This document shows positions 10,642-46,420 of a stretch of DNA of 64,000 nt, piece after piece (position 1 is the first letter of the stretch; the number at the start of each line of letters is the position of its first letter). This stretch comes from an uncultured cyanobacterium. GTDB lineage: Bacteria > Cyanobacteriota > Cyanobacteriia > PCC-6307 > Cyanobiaceae. The position numbers were made by a program, and so were the translations under genes. Below the pieces are notes generated by a model. It ran no database searches and was not told where the DNA came from. It saw nothing but the letters and a program-made list of their open reading frames with translations. The stretch spans positions 1-64,000 of the forward strand of contig CAIZQU010000018.1 in assembly GCA_903935205.1 (NCBI GenBank). Direction: 5' to 3'.

Positions 10642-10747
10642 GGACTGATCTGCCGAATGTGTTCAGGGGTCGGAACTTCCCCCGCGGGACTGCATGCCTG
10701 ACAGCTCATCGCTGAGCGATCAAGAAGCAGTGCTCTGTGCTGCTGAT

Positions 10748-11626: not shown

Positions 11627-12407
11627 GGGCCCAGAGCGAGTTTTTTTTGCTGTTCCACATTACAATCGTGCATCTATTCATGAGGCGCGCCTACAGTCCA
11701 TTGCCAACCAAGCCTGCAGGAACCTTGAGCCCATTGCATTGGACGATTGTGCGAACGATCATTCTGTTGCGGCCATCAAGAGCTTGTTCTGATCTGGGTT
11801 GCCGAATCAATGGACGACACCAGCAGGGCTGGCCTTGAGAAATGTTCGAACAGCGCCGAAAGCCTCGGCAGAAGATCAAGAGTCATCCCGTTCAAGCACA
11901 TACAGGCATGCACCCCTTGCCACGCAAACAGCATGGTCAAGGGCGCCATTGATTGATGGTCCTCGGCGATGATGGCCAACACTTCCATGGCCTTGGCACC
12001 GAGCAATCAGAGCGCATACTCAACCGTGCCATCGCGCGACCCTCCATCCGAACAGCGAACCTCAAAGCAGCGGCTTTTCTGCTCTACAAAGGAGTCGAGA
12101 CCAACAGCCACCATGCTTCTACCGCCCAAGAAAGCACCTGATCAGGCAGCAAGCTCCGCAGGGTGCCATTGCGCCTCGATTGGGTCGCCGCAAAAGCCTT
12201 TGCCAGCCTTGGGACTGGGTGGTCCCGAGATCCGCTGCGGAGCTCGCTGCCTAATCAAGAGAAAGCATGGGCAACAAAATCAGCGGAATAGACCCTTATC
12301 TCGACCTTTTGCCTGCCACATTTCTTCGCAAATTGGGCATTCAGAAAGCAAGAAATACGGGAGCAACATCTCGGTCAGAGGAAAACAGCCAAGAGACGGC
12401 AACCTGA
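11627..12407 (+). pseudogene. Decayed family-2 glycosyltransferase
   Basis: Successive fragments in different plus frames line up with a GT2 domain. First VFFAVPHYNRASIHEARLQS...LEPIALDDCAND (frame of 11481), the nucleotide-sugar strand with the DD pair. Next SRVIPFKHIQACTPCHANSMVKGA (frame of 11747), then VLGDDGQHF...ILNRAIA (frame of 11953), resembling the DxD region. A protein-like tail, GNKISGIDPYLDLLPATFLRK, ends at 12407. At least two frameshifts and the loss of start context make it non-functional. The region is visibly more AT-rich than its neighbours. Confidence is moderate because the match is by eye. Confidence 0.5.
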
Positions 12408-12459: not shown

Positions 12460-14451
12460 ATGATCCAGCCCTATGAGCCCCTCCATCACAAGTACCGCCC
12501 GCAGCGGCTTTCGGAGCTCGTGGGGCAGGAGGCCATCGCCGCCACCCTGGCCAATGCCCTGCGCAGCGGCCGCATCGCCCCCGCCTACCTGTTCAGCGGG
12601 CCCCGCGGCACCGGCAAGACCTCCAGCGCTCGCATCCTGGCTCGCTCGCTCAACTGCATCGCCAGCGCTGGTCCGACCCCTGAACCCTGCGGCAGCTGCG
12701 AACTCTGCCGATCCATCGCCGCCGGCAATGCCCTGGATGTGATCGAGATCGATGCCGCCTCCAACACCGGCGTCGACAACATCCGCGAACTGATCGAGCG
12801 CTCCCGCTTCGCGCCGGTGCAGGCCCGCTGGAAGGTTTATGTGGTGGATGAATGCCACATGCTCTCCACCGCAGCCTTCAACGCCCTGCTCAAGACCCTG
12901 GAGGAACCGCCGCCGCGGGTGGTGTTCGTACTGGCCACGACCGATCCTCAGCGGGTCTTGCCCACGATCCTCTCCCGCTGCCAGCGCTTCGATTTCCGCC
13001 GCATTCCCCTGGAGGCCCTCGAGCAACATCTCCGTTGGATCGCCACACAGGAGAGCATCGGGATCAGCCCCGAGGCCCTGCGGTTGGTGGCCCAGCGCGC
13101 CCAGGGAGGCCTGCGTGACGCGGAAAGCCTGCTGGATCAGCTCAGCCTGCTGCCTCCGCCTGTGGACGTCGAGGCGGTCTGGGAGCTTCTTGGGGCCGTT
13201 CCCGAACAGGAGCTGCTGCAGCTCGCCCAGGCCATGGCCGCACGGGAGCCCCTCGGCGTGGTGGAAACCTGCCGCGACCTGATGGATCGGGGGCGCGAAG
13301 CCGGAGCCGTTCTCCAGGGCCTGGCCAGCCTGCTCCGGGATCTGCTGCTGGCCGGCGTGGCACCGGATCGGCTGGAACTCACCAGCGTCTCGCCGAGCCT
13401 GCGGCCAGAGCTGCCAGGAGTCGCCCGCGCCATCGGCAAGGCGCGCCTTCTGCACTGGCAGGCCCAGCTCAAGGGCAGCGAGCAGCAGCTCCGTCACAGC
13501 GTGCAGCCCCGCCTGTGGCTGGAGGTGCTGCTGCTGGGGCTGCTGGCGGAGGCGCCCACCGGCTCCGCGGAAGCTGGGACCTCGATCCCAGCAGGGATCA
13601 GGGTTGGTGCGACACCATCGGCTCCACCGGCGGCATCGGAACGGTCGCCGGTCGAGCCCCGACGGGCGACCTCTGCGGAGTCGGAAACCCAGCCAGCGGC
13701 GAGTTCCAAGCCGTTGTCTGTCGCTGCCGAGGCCGACAACCGCAACCCTGCCGCCATGGGCGACAGTGCTGGCGCAACCGCTCCCGAAGCGGCGGGCCAC
13801 CAGCAGAACCTCGGCGAATTGTGGCATCAGATCCTGGCCAGCCTCGAGCTGCCCTCGACCCGGATGCTGCTGTCGCAGCAGGCCCATCTGCACCGCCTCG
13901 ACGATCGGCGGGCCGTGGTGCGGGTGGCCGGCAACTGGATCGCCATGGTCCAGACCCGGCGGCCCCTTCTCGAGAAGGCGATGGCGAGGGCACTCGGCAG
14001 TCCGCGGGCGATCACCCTGGAGGCCGGTGAGCAACGCGACGCTCCTGAAGCAACCGCCGGCCCGGTTGCTTCGTCCCCCTCCTCCTCTTCAGGGCCCCCA
14101 CTCAGGGCTTCTCAGCCTGCCGCTGCACCACAGCAGCCCCATGGGCCAGCAGAGCGCCCCACCCCAGCCACGGAACCAGCACCTCAGCCCGCATTGGAAC
14201 GGGCCCCCCAGCCCCCCGGGGAGAGCAACCCAATCGCCGTTCCTGCGGCACCAGCTCACAACCTGCAGGCCGACCCTCCATCCAGCGCAGCAACGACACC
14301 CCTACCCGACAACCACGGGAACAGCACGGCTGAGAGTGAGCCAGCCGCAGCTCAGGCAGCAGACCAGGGCTCGCAATCCCGGATCGATGAAAAAGCCAGA
14401 CTCTTTGCCAGTTTCTTCAATGGCGAAGTGATCTCTGGAGATGGGGCCTGA
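12460..14451 (+). CDS. dnaX: DNA polymerase III subunits gamma and tau
   Basis: Clamp-loader ATPase of the replisome. It begins MIQPYEPLHHKYRPQRLSELVGQ, with Walker A GPRGTGKT at residues 47-54, zinc-binding cysteines including CGSCELC, Walker B VYVVDECHML and the sensor region LEEPPPRVVFVLATTD. After about residue 370 there is a Pro/Ala/Ser-rich linker with a short conserved segment (ELWHQILASLELPSTRMLLSQQA), then a low-complexity tail. At 663 aa it is a tau-length product. There is no intein, unlike dnaX of some filamentous or other cyanobacteria. I chose ATG 12460 over 12409 because the extra residues are unlike the family. Confidence 0.94.
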   Translation: MIQPYEPLHHKYRPQRLSELVGQEAIAATLANALRSGRIAPAYLFSGPRGTGKTSSARILARSLNCIASAGPTPEPCGSCELCRSIAAGNALDVIEIDAASNTGVDNIRELIERSRFAPVQARWKVYVVDECHMLSTAAFNALLKTLEEPPPRVVFVLATTDPQRVLPTILSRCQRFDFRRIPLEALEQHLRWIATQESIGISPEALRLVAQRAQGGLRDAESLLDQLSLLPPPVDVEAVWELLGAVPEQELLQLAQAMAAREPLGVVETCRDLMDRGREAGAVLQGLASLLRDLLLAGVAPDRLELTSVSPSLRPELPGVARAIGKARLLHWQAQLKGSEQQLRHSVQPRLWLEVLLLGLLAEAPTGSAEAGTSIPAGIRVGATPSAPPAASERSPVEPRRATSAESETQPAASSKPLSVAAEADNRNPAAMGDSAGATAPEAAGHQQNLGELWHQILASLELPSTRMLLSQQAHLHRLDDRRAVVRVAGNWIAMVQTRRPLLEKAMARALGSPRAITLEAGEQRDAPEATAGPVASSPSSSSGPPLRASQPAAAPQQPHGPAERPTPATEPAPQPALERAPQPPGESNPIAVPAAPAHNLQADPPSSAATTPLPDNHGNSTAESEPAAAQAADQGSQSRIDEKARLFASFFNGEVISGDGA

Positions 14452-19137: not shown

Positions 19138-19170
19138 CCACCGACCAGCTGGCCATCAGCTGGTCGGTGG
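19138..19170 (+). terminator. Hairpin after rpmI-rplT-TPR operon
   Basis: A perfect 14-bp inverted repeat (CCACCGACCAGCTG / CAGCTGGTCGGTGG) with a 5-base loop begins 19 bases after the TPR stop. There is no U-tract, as is common for cyanobacterial terminators. It also lies at the 3' side of the opposing gene at 19329 and could act in both directions. Confidence 0.7.
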
Positions 19171-37984: not shown

Positions 37985-40971
<2,987 letters not shown>

Positions 40972-40975
<4 letters not shown>

Positions 40976-41679
40976 GCGCCATCCCGCAGGAGCTGCTGGG
41001 GCTGCGGGTCGAGGTGGTGCGCTCGCTTCGGCGCACCGCTGCCCTGCAGATCGTGGGCTCGGAGCTGCAGGTGCGGGTGCCCGCGCAGCTGGCGGATGAT
41101 CGGATCGCCGCGATCCTTCAGCAGAAGCGCCCCTGGATCCGCTCCAAGGTGGCCCAGCTGCAACAGTTGCCGCCCCATCGGCCCAGGGAAGCGGTGAGCG
41201 GTGAATCCTTTCCCTACCTCGGCCGTCATTACCGCCTCAAGGTGCAGGAGGGACATCCGGTGGGAGTGTGCCTTTCCGGCGGCCTCCTGCGGGCCACCGT
41301 TCGCCCCCAGGAGCAGGGAGACCAGCGCCGCGCCCGCATCCGCCACTACCTGGAGCGGTGGTATCGCGGCCGTGCCCTGGAGCGCCTGCAGGACAAAGCC
41401 GATCGCTACGGACGGCAGATGGGCGTGACGCCCGCCAGCGTCAGCGTGCGGGCCTTCCGCTCCCGCTGGGGCTCCTGCGACAGACAGGGAAAGGTGGTGT
41501 TCAACTGGCACATCATCAAGGCACCGCACCCCGTGGTGGATTACGTGGTGATCCATGAGCTGGCCCATCTGGTGCATGCCAATCACTCCAGGGCTTTCTG
41601 GCAGCTGGTGGAACGCCACTGCCCCGCCTTTGCGCTTCACCGCACCTGGCTGAAGGACCAGGCCCTGAGGCTGCTGTGA
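40972..41679 (+). CDS. YgjP-type (DUF45) metallopeptidase-like protein
   Basis: 235 aa. The zinc motif is HELAHLVHANHS with the preceding signature RSRWGSCDRQGKVVFNWHIIKAP. The N-terminal half is a small beta domain. The GTG at 40972 overlaps the hsdR stop (GTGA), so it is translated as part of the restriction operon. Genes of this family are frequent neighbours of type I systems, but their job there is not known to me. The open frame to 40846 is hsdR read out of frame. Confidence 0.9.
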
Positions 41680-41893: not shown

Positions 41894-42970
41894 TTAGCGG
41901 AACTGAGGAAGCTTGTTCGCATCAAAACCACGACGCAAGGCCTCGCCAATGCTAAGACCGATCGGCAAGTCACCAGAGAAGGCGCTTCCAGTTGTTCGCT
42001 TGTAGAGCTTCGATTCGACCAGTCGATAGGTGCTGGCAGGAAGGGGAATATCTCCGGATGCTGCGACAATGCGAAGAGCGTTGCGAACAGCATAGCTGGT
42101 GAATCTCTGCAAATCAGGCCTGGCCGCGAGGGCCTTGTCGTTGACATAGACAAACAAAGGCCGCGAAAGCGGCTGATAGCGCCCCGACTGAACATTGGCA
42201 ACAGACGGATGAACCGCGCCAGAAGAGGAGGCAACAGCAAGGGCCCTGAGTTTATTCTGGCTACCCCTATAGTAACTGAATCCGAAATAACCAAGAGCCT
42301 TTACATCCTGCGACACACAGCTAACGATAACATTGTCATCCTCGCTAAAAGCGTAATCCCGCCTTGAATTATCAGTGTCACCATTAATAGCCTTGTTAAA
42401 ATAGTCGTAGGTACCCGAGTCCCTGCCAGGTCCGCAGAGCTTGATCGGGAGCCGCGGCCAGTCGCGGTTCACATCGTTCCAGGTACTGACTTTTCCCTCA
42501 GCTTGCCGCCCCCACAGCCGGGCCAGTTCCTTGACGGTGATCTGTCTGGCCCATGTGTTAGCAGGGTGCACCACGATGGAGATGGCATCAAAGGCGATCG
42601 GCAGCTCAATGAAGCTGATGCGATTGCCAGCACAAGCCTTGAGCTCCTTGGCGTTGATCGGCCGGGAGGCGTTGGCGATCTCGAGCTGGCCAAGACAGAA
42701 GCGCCTGAAGCCATCACTGGTTCCGGTCTCCTTGAGATCGACCCTGGTGCTGTTGCCTGACGCCTGGAAGGATCGGATCGCCTCCTTCATGAACGGGAAC
42801 ACCGTGCTGGAGCCGCCGATCCGGATACTGGAGGGGGGCCTGGTGCTGCCGTTGCCTCCAAGAGCAAGAGCCAGCGAAGCGGCCAAGGGTGTAGTCGTCA
42901 TGGTTGTGGCGATCGCTGCCGCAACCTGAATCCCGAAGAAAACGCTTCGAGACACCCGGCTGGAAGTCAT
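41894..42970 (-). CDS. PstS/SphX-like phosphate-binding protein
   Basis: Periplasmic substrate-binding protein of a phosphate ABC transporter. ATG 42970 gives 358 aa with signal peptide VFFGIQVAAAIATTMTTTPLAASLALA. Phosphate-site segments are IRIGGSSTVFPFMKEAI, GTSDGFRRFCLGQLEIANASRPI and GRDSGTYDYFNKAI. It has no pstCAB genes beside it, as for orphan SphX proteins. The upstream palindrome at 43002-43033 contains an ArsR-type box also found before gap, implying control by the neighbouring arsR. It could alternatively bind arsenate. Confidence 0.88.
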   Translation of the reverse strand: MTSSRVSRSVFFGIQVAAAIATTMTTTPLAASLALALGGNGSTRPPSSIRIGGSSTVFPFMKEAIRSFQASGNSTRVDLKETGTSDGFRRFCLGQLEIANASRPINAKELKACAGNRISFIELPIAFDAISIVVHPANTWARQITVKELARLWGRQAEGKVSTWNDVNRDWPRLPIKLCGPGRDSGTYDYFNKAINGDTDNSRRDYAFSEDDNVIVSCVSQDVKALGYFGFSYYRGSQNKLRALAVASSSGAVHPSVANVQSGRYQPLSRPLFVYVNDKALAARPDLQRFTSYAVRNALRIVAASGDIPLPASTYRLVESKLYKRTTGSAFSGDLPIGLSIGEALRRGFDANKLPQFR

Positions 42971-43001
42971 GGGGCGGATCAGGGGAGGGAACAAACCTCC
43001 A

Positions 43002-43033
43002 CTTAACCCATCAACCGTTATTGATGGGTTAAG
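43002..43033. promoter_or_regulatory. Palindromic operator upstream of pstS-like gene
   Basis: A perfect 13-bp inverted repeat (CTTAACCCATCAA / TTGATGGGTTAAG) with a 6-base centre lies 32-63 bases upstream of the pstS start. Its core ATCAA-N6-TTGAT is the same as the box before gap. The outer arms CTTAACCC also look like half of a cyanobacterial Pho box. An operator is more likely than a terminator because of its position before a start codon. Confidence 0.7.
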
Positions 43034-43502
43034 GATGGGGCGACTGTCACGGAAGGTCATCCTGGAGCTGAATCAACCGTCGTGCAGCGCCACTGACTCC
43101 CAATCCTGACTCCCAATCCCGGATTCAACCACTGGTGTCGAGCCCCTGCGAGCACTGCTGCGGGCCAGACAACGCCTGCAGGCCAAAAGATGGCAAGTTA
43201 CAACGACACGGCCCGAAAGTGCCCGGAATTGGGCCATCACTGATCCCAAGAGTCGACAGCTCCTCTCGTTCGCCATCAACGTCCACTCTCTCCTCGCCAG
43301 CAGGGAACCGATGCCAAGGCAATGATCTGGCCTGCTCCATGTGAGGCGATCAGATCCTCCGCTCAGATCCAGCCAACCGGACAGTTCACCGTGAAAATCG
43401 TGGCAGTGGACGGGCATGGGCAGAGATGGCACCAATACCGCCACCATCGCCGACATGGTCCACACCGGCAGCAGCTTGTCGGGCCTGGAGGGCCATCACA
43501 GC
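43034..43502. other. Intergenic stretch between pstS-like gene and arsR
   Basis: About 470 bases. The frame 43073-43465 on the minus strand is open but Arg/Cys-rich and matches nothing I recognise; it could be a decayed gene. No repeat or RNA gene was seen. Confidence 0.35.
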
Positions 43503-43868
43503 TCAGGAGCAGGGATTCGCAGGGGCCGGCGACACGGCAGCGAGCTGGTCCAGCCAGTCGCGCAGCAGCAGCAGGGAGTCAGGCTCCAGGCGGTAGTAGA
43601 TCCAGCGCCCCTCCTGGCGGGCGCGGATCAGGCCCGCCTCCTTGAGCACCTTGAGATGAAACGACAGTTTCGACTGGGCCAGATCCAGATCGCCCGTGAG
43701 GTCACAGACGCAGCGTTCACCATGCTGCAGGGCCTGCACCACCTGGAGACGGATCGGCTCGGCCAGGGCGCGCAACAGCTGCTGCGCCTGATCGGGAGCC
43801 AGCGGCTCAGCGGTTGACACAGGTGCGGCAGTGGCTTCCACGATGGATCGGACTGGAGCTGCTGGCAC
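43503..43868 (-). CDS. arsR: ArsR-family metalloregulator
   Basis: 121 aa winged-helix repressor. The As(III)/Sb(III)-sensing cysteines are in ERCVCDLTGD (Cys53, Cys55), matching the ELCVCDL motif of classical ArsR. The recognition helix region is LAQSKLSFHLKVLKEAGLIRARQEGRWIYYRL. It is divergent from the gap-arsJ operon; arsenite binding should release its operators before gap and probably before the pstS-like gene. Confidence 0.93.
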   Translation of the reverse strand: MPAAPVRSIVEATAAPVSTAEPLAPDQAQQLLRALAEPIRLQVVQALQHGERCVCDLTGDLDLAQSKLSFHLKVLKEAGLIRARQEGRWIYYRLEPDSLLLLRDWLDQLAAVSPAPANPCS

Positions 43869-43912
43869 GAGTCTGTCGGCAAAGGGGGCTGCGATCGAGA
43901 AGCGACAGCACC

Positions 43913-44020
43913 GAGGCGAGGCGAGGCGAGGCGAGGCGAGGCCAGGTCAGGTCAGGTCAGGTCAGGTCAGGTCAGGTCAGGTCAGGTCAGGTCAGGTCAG
44001 GTCAGGTCAGGTCAGGCGAG
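43913..44020. repeat. Pentanucleotide tandem repeat in arsR/gap promoter region
   Basis: Six units of GAGGC (43913-43942) run directly into 14 units of CAGGT (43943-44012), then degenerate GAGGC-like sequence. The array lies between the arsR start and the gap operator, so it is in the arsR leader or promoter. Pentamer slippage would change promoter spacing in 5-base steps. All reading frames through it give QVRSG-type repeats that are not a real protein. Confidence 0.95.
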
Positions 44021-44047
44021 GCCGATGTGACGCGGAACACCCGGTCC

Positions 44048-44063
44048 ATCAACCCTAGTTGAT
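44048..44063. promoter_or_regulatory. ArsR-type operator before gap-arsJ
   Basis: The inverted repeat ATCAA-CCCTAG-TTGAT lies 42 bases before the gap ATG at 44105. It shares both ATCAA/TTGAT arms and the 6-base spacing with the box upstream of the pstS-like gene. The arrangement fits ArsR/SmtB-family operators. Confidence 0.75.
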
Positions 44064-44104
44064 CTATGGTTGCAGCGTTGGCCGGCGCTTCCGCTTCCCA
44101 GTCC

Positions 44105-45148
44105 ATGAAAATCGGCATCAACGGCTTCGGGCGCATCGGCCGCCTGGTCTTCCGTGCCCTGTGGGGGCGTCCTGGGATCGAACTGGTCCACGTCAATGAC
44201 CCCGCCGGCGATGCCCACACCGCCGCCCATCTGCTGGCGTTTGACTCGGTGCATGGCCGCTGGCAGCAGGCTGTTCAAGCCAATAAAGCCTTGTCTGGAA
44301 ACAGCCAGGGTTTCTTCGTGGGCACCACGCCTGTGAGCACCACCCAGGAGAAAGATCCCACCGCCGTGCCCTGGCGCCAGGCCGGTGTGGAGATGGTGCT
44401 CGAATGCAGCGGCAAGTTCAAGACGCCGCAAACCCTGCAGCCCTATTTCGACCAGGTGGGCCTGGAGCGTGTGGTGGTCGCCTGTCCCGTGAAGGGCGAG
44501 ATCGCCGGCGCCGAGGCCCTGAACATCGTGTTCGGCATCAACCACCACCTCTATGACCCCGGCCTGCACCGGCTGATCACCGCCGCCTCCTGCACCACCA
44601 ACTGCCTGGCACCGGTGGTGAAGGTGGTGCACGAAAGCTTCGGCATCGAGCACGGCTCGATCACCACCCTCCACGATGTGACCAACACCCAGGTGGTGGT
44701 GGATGGCTTCAAGAGCGATCTGCGCCGGGCCCGCTCCTGCATGCAGAGCCTGATCCCCACCACCACCGGCTCCGCCAAGGCGATCGGGATGATCTTCCCC
44801 GAGCTGCAGGGCCGCCTCAATGGCCATGCCGTGCGCGTACCGCTGCTCAATGCCTCACTCACCGATGCGGTGTTCGAGCTGAAGCGCTCCGTCACGGTGG
44901 AGGAGGTGAACCGGGCCTTCGAGGAGGCCGCCAACGGTCCACTCCAGGGAATCCTGGGCTACGAAACCCGACCGCTGGTGTCGGTGGATTATGTGAATGA
45001 TTCCCGCAGCGCCATCGTCGACGGCCTCTCAACCATGGTGGTGAACGGTACCCAGCTCAAGGTCTACGCCTGGTACGACAACGAGTGGGGCTACAGCTCA
45101 CGCATGGCCGATCTGGTCAGCCATGTGGCACTGCTGGATCAGCGCTGA
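44105..45148 (+). CDS. gap: ArsJ-associated glyceraldehyde-3-phosphate dehydrogenase
   Basis: In ars operons this GAPDH uses arsenate in place of phosphate, making 1-arseno-3-phosphoglycerate that ArsJ exports. NAD motif [16 protein letters not shown]; catalytic cysteine in [10 protein letters not shown] (Cys163); the C-terminal [14 protein letters not shown] is standard. ATG 44105 starts exactly at the conserved [12 protein letters not shown]; the upstream ATG at 44066 would touch the operator. arsJ follows 9 bases downstream. This is a second, dedicated GAPDH, not the Calvin-cycle enzyme. Confidence 0.94.
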
Positions 45149-45157
45149 GAACGAACC

Positions 45158-46420
45158 ATGAGCGGCGCACCCAGGTTGTCGGCCCTGCAGCAGTACATGG
45201 TCGTCACGGCCAACTACTGGGCCTTCACGCTCAGCGACGGGGCGCTGCGCATGCTGGTCGTATTCCATTTTCATGGCCTCGGTTACAGCACGCTGGAGAT
45301 TGCCCTGCTGTTTCTCTTCTATGAGTTCTTCGGCATCCTCACCAACCTGTATGGCGGCTGGCTTGGCGGCAGGTTCGGCCTGAGGCTCACGCTCTGGAGC
45401 GGCACCTTGCTACAGGTGGCGGCGCTGCTGATGCTGATCCCGGTGGCGGATAGCTGGCCCAGGTGGTGGAGCGTTGCCTATGTGATGGTCGCCCAGGCGT
45501 TCAGTGGCATCGCCAAGGATCTCAACAAGATGAGCGCCAAGAGCGCCATCAAGACCGTCGTGCCCGAAACCCCTGAAGATCACAACAAGGGGGAGCAGCA
45601 GCTCTTCCGCTGGGTGGCGATCCTCACAGGCTCCAAGAATGCCCTCAAGGGGGTGGGCTTCTTCCTGGGAGGTGTGCTGCTCACCACGATCGGTTTCAAT
45701 GCGGCCGTGGCGGTGATGGCGGCCGGCCTGCTGCTGGCCTTCTGCGGCACTCTCGTGCTTCCGGCGCACATGGGCCGCATGAAGCAGAAGCCTGGCTTCA
45801 GCGCGCTGTTCTCCAAGAGCCAGGGCATCAATGTGCTGTCACTGGCCCGTTTCTTCCTGTTCGGTGCCCGTGATGTCTGGTTCGTGGTGGCCCTGCCGGT
45901 GTTCCTCGAAGCCGCCCTGGGCTGGAAGTTCTGGGAGGTGGGCGGCTTCATGGGCCTGTGGGTGATCGGCTACGGGATCGTGCAGGGCTCAGCGCCGGCT
46001 CTCAGGCGCGCCTGGGGCCAGTCGGCCGCTCCCGGTGTGGCGGCAGTGGAGTTCTGGAGCGCCGTGCTCACGGCCATTCCGGCCCTGATCGCCATCGCTC
46101 TCTGGCGGCAGGTGGGCCATCCCGGTGTGGCGGTGGTGGCAGGGCTGGCCGTGTTCGGGCTGGTATTTGCCATGAATTCCTCGATTCATAGTTACATGAT
46201 CCTGGCCTATTCCGACGCCGAAGCCGTGAGTCTGAATGTGGGCTTCTATTACATGGCCAATGCTGCCGGGCGACTGGTCGGCACGCTGCTCTCCGGTGCC
46301 ATGTTCCTGGCGGGCGGGATGCAGGCCTGCCTGTGGACCTCCACGGCCCTGGTGGCTGCTGCCTTTCTGGTCAGCACCCGCCTGCCCGCGCCGCCGCGCC
46401 AGCTTCAGGCGGCAAACTGA
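45158..46420 (+). CDS. arsJ: Organoarsenical efflux MFS transporter
   Basis: 420 aa with about 11-12 hydrophobic segments. The N-terminus LSALQQYMVVTANYWAFTLSDGALRMLVVFHFHGLGYSTLEIALLFLFYEFFGILTN is characteristic of ArsJ. It exports 1-arseno-3-phosphoglycerate made by the coupled GAPDH, giving arsenate resistance without a reductase. No arsC, arsB or acr3 gene is nearby. Confidence 0.93.
   Translation: MSGAPRLSALQQYMVVTANYWAFTLSDGALRMLVVFHFHGLGYSTLEIALLFLFYEFFGILTNLYGGWLGGRFGLRLTLWSGTLLQVAALLMLIPVADSWPRWWSVAYVMVAQAFSGIAKDLNKMSAKSAIKTVVPETPEDHNKGEQQLFRWVAILTGSKNALKGVGFFLGGVLLTTIGFNAAVAVMAAGLLLAFCGTLVLPAHMGRMKQKPGFSALFSKSQGINVLSLARFFLFGARDVWFVVALPVFLEAALGWKFWEVGGFMGLWVIGYGIVQGSAPALRRAWGQSAAPGVAAVEFWSAVLTAIPALIAIALWRQVGHPGVAVVAGLAVFGLVFAMNSSIHSYMILAYSDAEAVSLNVGFYYMANAAGRLVGTLLSGAMFLAGGMQACLWTSTALVAAAFLVSTRLPAPPRQLQAAN

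Follow-up and report, generated by a model that had tools for sequence, protein, structure and literature searches.

One ArsR switch appears to serve both arsenic defence and phosphate supply in a picocyanobacterium and many of its relatives

A single ArsR switch appears to connect arsenic defence with phosphate supply in the picocyanobacterium whose 64-kb stretch of DNA (contig CAIZQU010000018.1, hereafter the window) we analyzed, and in many of its relatives. The locus comprises pstS (41894–42970, minus strand), which encodes a PstS_2/SphX-type periplasmic phosphate-binding protein; arsR (43503–43868, minus strand), which encodes an As(III)-type repressor of the ArsR/SmtB family; and gap (44105–45148, plus strand) and arsJ (45158–46420, plus strand), which encode an ArsJ-associated glyceraldehyde-3-phosphate dehydrogenase (GAPDH) and an organoarsenical efflux transporter of the major facilitator superfamily (MFS). 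The best explanation of the whole, to which we give a probability of roughly 0.75 from sequence comparison, is that ArsR would repress both the pstS and the gap-arsJ promoters, that As(III) would derepress them, and that phosphate-linked activators would set the ceiling of expression. A preliminary description of this DNA had proposed that one ArsR governs pstS and gap-arsJ. Comparison across genomes lends this predicted joint control good support: the operator tracks both arsR and linkage to ars genes and recurs before a non-orthologous pstS.

Two exact copies of ATCAA-N6-TTGAT flank arsR, precisely where the preliminary description had placed them. Box 1 (ATCAACCGTTATTGAT, 43010–43025) lies 39 bp upstream of pstS, and box 2 (ATCAACCCTAGTTGAT, 44048–44063) occupies the interval from arsR to gap, 41 bp ahead of the gap start. 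No further copy occurs in the window, for which dinucleotide shuffles predict 0.01 exact boxes, and two boxes arose in 0 of 100 shuffles. Backgrounds throughout were Markov or dinucleotide shuffles together with within-genome controls; a reversed-pattern control was set aside, since genes seldom contain TAG and the reversed word includes it. The whole 3.82-Mb genome holds four exact sites, and the two outside this locus are both intragenic, leaving boxes 1 and 2 as the sole promoter-placed exact copies genome-wide. ATCAAN6TTGAT has been cited as the ArsR core consensus (PMC9137774), and the window promoters match this published operator form. The position of the box would also allow it to block polymerase: box 2 is followed directly by a presumed -10-like element (TATGGT, 44065–44070, plus strand) that recurs in related gap promoters, and in several loci outside the family, with operons of the Nostocales type, the box lies inside the spacer between TTGACA and the -10 element.

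The strongest evidence that the box belongs to ArsR is its presence and absence together with arsR. Among 89 distinct picocyanobacterial gap loci, 85 promoters carry an exact box and 88 carry one with at most one mismatch, often as two tandem boxes 18–19 bp apart; the sole promoter without a box (L151) belongs to a locus that has no arsR. None of the 10 gap-arsJ genomes without detectable arsR has a box before gap. Because gap promoters lack the box where arsR is absent, we assign it to ArsR as the probable binding protein. Outside the family, approximately half of 28 ArsJ loci are arranged as co-directional arsR-pstS-gap-arsJ, often with a box before pstS.

The preliminary description had also suggested looking for the box before pstS in related genomes, and this comparison gave a clear contrast. 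Where a PstS_2/SphX-type pstS lies within 3 kb of ars genes, an upstream box with at most one mismatch is present in 18 of 19 cases, compared with 4 of 35 for other copies (Fisher p = 1e-9, a value that overstates independence, as the rows are phylogenetically related). Thus, 22 boxes are found in 54 pstS_2 promoters, against 0.28 expected from shuffles. A maximum-likelihood tree places the picocyanobacterial PstS_2 proteins in one clade (support 100/100), in which linked, boxed genes are spread over several subclades among unlinked, unboxed copies. Linkage alone is insufficient to explain the box, because copies at a distance keep it: three unlinked pstS_2 genes nested in an ars-linked clade retain AACAAN6TTGAT, and in genome G024 a pstS that is separated from arsJ by about 0.8 Mb has an exact box. 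It could be argued that the box at pstS is vestigial or arose as a chance palindrome, with phosphate alone in control of the gene, given that most unlinked pstS homologues have Pho boxes but lack the ArsR box and that the right half of the box has decayed in one related sequence (L038). However, the excess of boxed promoters over expectation, the persistence of the arms while the PstS_2 proteins diverged to 50–67% identity, and the retention of boxes at pstS genes away from ars together make this reading unlikely. A separate case is found in genome G118, where an exact box and an intact pstS stand beside arsJ fragments (L071, 1978–3658) and a full arsJ and an arsR lie on another contig.

The box also precedes a pstS of different descent. 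In Prochlorococcus-type genomes, a non-orthologous classical pstS adjoins arsR-gap-arsJ, and one to three exact boxes are found at this gene in 27 of 30 loci, several of whose genomes are near-identical; two of the three exceptions have no arsR. Unlinked classical pstS genes in arsR-bearing genomes have a box in 7 of 30 cases, and ten classical pstS genes from a set chosen for lacking arsR yielded one box. In loci read by hand, boxes also stand before phoB (L130) and before ptrA (L130 and L143), a gene whose product we take to be a CRP-family phosphate-stress regulator. Exact boxes lie at 12671–12705, 12800–12815 and 15257–15272 in L130, at 10711–10726 and 10979–10994 in L143, and at 11632–11666 in L165. 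The occurrence of Prochlorococcus boxes at pstS, phoB and ptrA might suggest that another regulator, for example PtrA itself, binds these sites in place of ArsR. We consider this highly improbable, since gap-arsJ genomes without arsR have no box, the ptrA-phoB-pstS cluster of the window genome has no exact copy, the motif is the published ArsR core, and a separate CRP-type site adjoins it. We also considered and rejected a large ArsR regulon in the Prochlorococcus-like genome G056, where most of the 35 sites are spread about in the manner expected of an AT-rich background; the exception is the ars-pstS locus, at which four fall within 4.3 kb. Because these sites are mostly background-like, we claim no genome-wide regulon.

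Box 1 is contained in a perfect palindrome with 13-bp arms (CTTAACCCATCAA-N6-TTGATGGGTTAAG, 43002–43033), one of two perfect palindromes of such length in the window; the other, at 19138–19170, has 14-bp arms. The nesting that the preliminary description reported is therefore real, but the palindromy of the outer arms is not kept in orthologues. The mirror arm is specific to the window, whereas the ATCAA/TTGAT core is retained, and conservation thus does not extend to the long palindrome itself. The palindrome folds well as RNA (-26.5 kcal/mol, z -5.5) and arsR and pstS are transcribed in the same direction, which would fit a hairpin acting as a terminator or attenuator between the two genes. 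Nonetheless, no T-run follows the palindrome, it sits 470 bp past arsR, and orthologues conserve the core with non-palindromic outer arms. We reject the hairpin as very improbable.

In addition to the ArsR box, the promoters contain sites of a phosphate-responsive type. With or without an ArsR box, most pstS promoters of the family have an 8-3-8 Pho box, formed by CTTAACC-like direct repeats 11 bp apart (mean best score 11/14, compared with 8 in shuffles), and in boxed promoters the second Pho half usually lies 0–1 bp from the ArsR box. Composites of this kind are also found in 18 of 89 gap promoters, with 0–2 bp between the sites, where 0.2 would be expected. Most gap promoters of arsR-less loci keep a Pho-box-like pair but have no ArsR box, as if phosphate control had remained after loss of ArsR or had come first. 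In five gap-arsJ loci without arsR (L330, L332, L333, L334 and L335), gap is preceded by Pho-box-like repeats but by no ArsR box. The dual PhoB/ArsR control put forward in the preliminary description is supported at the family level by these abutting sites, which point to joint phosphate and ArsR input; for the window itself it is less certain, with only the proximal half-site of its pstS promoter clear. This half-site (CTTAACCC on the gene strand, 43026–43033, minus strand) abuts box 1 and is shared with orthologues. The best Pho-box score in the window's pstS promoter is 11/14 (shuffle p = 0.005). On the gap side, the window has a CRP-type site (GTGACGCGGAACAC, of the form GTG-N8-CAC, 44027–44040, plus strand) that ends 7 bp before box 2. 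In 25 of 85 gap promoters (0.95 expected), the same form ends 6–7 bp short of the ArsR box, or at that distance plus the length of one tandem box, so the spacing is mostly fixed. A likely ptrA gene adjoins phoB in the window genome, and PtrA is a candidate for the protein that would bind the CRP-type site.

These observations are consistent with a model in which one ArsR would repress the divergent arsR/gap-arsJ promoter through box 2 and the separate pstS promoter through box 1. ArsR would leave both boxes once As(III) accumulates inside the cell. Gap would convert arsenate to 1-arseno-3-phosphoglycerate, ArsJ would export the product, and more of the periplasmic phosphate-binding protein would be made simultaneously with export. 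The box is paired with a putative activator site. In many relatives this is a Pho box, found at pstS and in some cases also at gap; in others, including the window, it is the CRP-type site at gap that could be PtrA's. Output would peak under phosphate scarcity in the presence of arsenic. The sequences show the boxes, the gene identities, the conservation and the co-occurrence with arsR; within this model, we infer ArsR binding, its release by As(III), the identity of the activators and the ability of PstS to help phosphate outcompete arsenate. A stricter version, which we offer tentatively as possible, is that compound promoters joining ArsR to phosphate-starvation control (Pho box or CRP/PtrA type) would allow full production of arsenate export and phosphate-binding proteins only at low phosphate with arsenic present, and that in Prochlorococcus ArsR control over pstS, phoB and ptrA would gate the starvation system.

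Membership of pstS in the ArsR regulon could also serve a purpose other than selective phosphate uptake. PstS_2 might instead be a periplasmic arsenate/phosphate sink or a sensor; as a sink, it might catch arsenate freed when exported 1-arseno-3-phosphoglycerate hydrolyses. The window pstS is an orphan, with no pstCAB beside it, and its binding region has NASRPI (ASRP) where the two classical PstS that the genome also encodes have Asp, so that the classical Ser-Asp motif is absent; an earlier study of cyanobacterial arsenic genes leaves both uptake and export roles open (PMC4284471). Conversely, solved relatives in the PstS_2 family are named phosphate-binding proteins, and relatives of the window pstS mostly have Pho boxes, consistent with phosphate supply. 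We regard a sink or sensor role, capture of released arsenate included, as the less likely reading. The selective phosphate uptake proposed in the preliminary description is a candidate function of PstS_2, and scavenging of arsenate a possible one.

Several points weigh against joint ArsR control of pstS and gap-arsJ. The comparative tests overstate independence through the phylogenetic relatedness of their rows, and the position of three boxes among the 18 linked ones (L081, L098 and L100) makes them doubtful. The window's pstS promoter has a weak distal Pho half-site, and in genus g17 the ars-linked classical pstS has no box and an unlinked copy is boxed. Finally, many unlinked pstS_2 copies in arsR-bearing genomes lack the box, and the coupling is therefore not universal.

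Phosphate transporters are the route by which arsenate enters cells, and low phosphate is the normal condition for the most abundant phototrophs of the oceans. The shared operator, fused to phosphate-starvation sites and repeated before non-orthologous pstS genes, offers a concrete, testable wiring by which such phototrophs may handle the conflict between arsenate and phosphate. It also implies that the abundance of pstS/SphX, used as a marker of phosphate stress, may partly report arsenic.

Gene identities were assigned by curated cut-offs, which all four proteins exceeded: PstS_2 scored 240.9 bits against TIGR02136 (cut-off 206.6) and also falls under PBP_like_2, ArsR 97.8 bits against NF033788 (cut-off 55) with a further match to PF01022, Gap 550 bits against NF033735 (cut-off 450) and ArsJ 582 bits against NF033734 (cut-off 400). 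The ArsR translation, read directly, contains GERCVCDL, the CxC As(III)-binding motif in the DNA-binding region, and this is the single ArsR of the CVCDL/As(III) type found in the genome. The genes gap and arsJ are adjacent in one operon, with 9 bp between them, and diverge from arsR, which is co-directional with pstS. From an alignment of orthologous promoters, the pstS start is most likely 42970 rather than 43060, and box 1 is therefore upstream of the gene and not within it; the gap start is most likely 44105 rather than 44066. An Acr3 arsenite exporter is encoded elsewhere in the genome. Between arsR and the divergent promoter lies a tandem repeat (43912–44016) of approximately 21 head-to-tail pentanucleotide units, CGAGG then AGGTC, which is probably in the arsR leader; slippage-driven changes in its length could alter arsR expression. 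ArsJ and Gap are 91% and 89% identical to those of genus g18, compared with 82–87% and 75–86% for the two same-genus genomes compared, and the window pstS groups with g18, apart from the pstS of its congeners. The closer similarity of all three to g18 suggests horizontal movement of the 41894–46420 cluster. The interval 37985–41679 encodes the HsdR subunit of a type I restriction system and then, overlapping it, a metallopeptidase of the YgjP-like kind.

The kind of system described here is known, given precedents from the clusters of Huertas et al., from Nodularia and from Agrobacterium. Huertas et al. (2014; PMC4284471) found cyanobacterial PstS, Gap3 and MFS genes with ars genes and suggested co-regulation from gene order, and Nodularia nsp33490–33520 is arranged as arsR-sphX-gap-arsJ (PMC3610870, PMC9846622). 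The association of pstS with ars genes and the idea of co-regulation are thus already published (PMC4284471, PMC3610870). The window has the four genes of these clusters, arsR, pstS, gap and arsJ, within a few kilobases, the arrangement that defines the cyanobacterial cluster. However, the published clusters are mostly co-directional operons, whereas in the window pstS stands apart as a unit under an ArsR box of its own; in addition, the operator itself is identified here and found to track arsR. In Agrobacterium tumefaciens 5A, ArsR1 binds between pstS1 and phoB1 and represses both, and As(III) induces them (PMC7965956). That system likewise places ArsR at a pst/pho locus beside ars genes, but it differs in its motifs, its full pst operon, its arsenite oxidation and a regulation reported as phosphate-insensitive, whereas many relatives of the window fuse the ArsR box to phosphate-type activator sites. 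The GAPDH-ArsJ arsenate efflux pathway of Pseudomonas and Halomonas has two proteins, GAPDH and ArsJ, in common with the window, and pst genes lie within the Halomonas arsenic island; an ArsR box at a pstS was not part of that description, and arsenic resistance in that strain did not change when either pst operon was deleted (PMC5930303). Synechocystis PCC 6803 also has a cyanobacterial ArsR that governs arsenic export genes, although it controls five genes only, around arsBHC, none of them phosphate-binding (PMC4010505). The literature that we searched, which covered few subscription papers, did not contain a published ArsR motif at a cyanobacterial pstS, the explicit conserved operators, the split arrangement or the composite promoters. 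Relative to these known systems, what is new is the set of explicit conserved operators, the split arrangement in which pstS carries a box of its own, and the composite phosphate/arsenic promoters.

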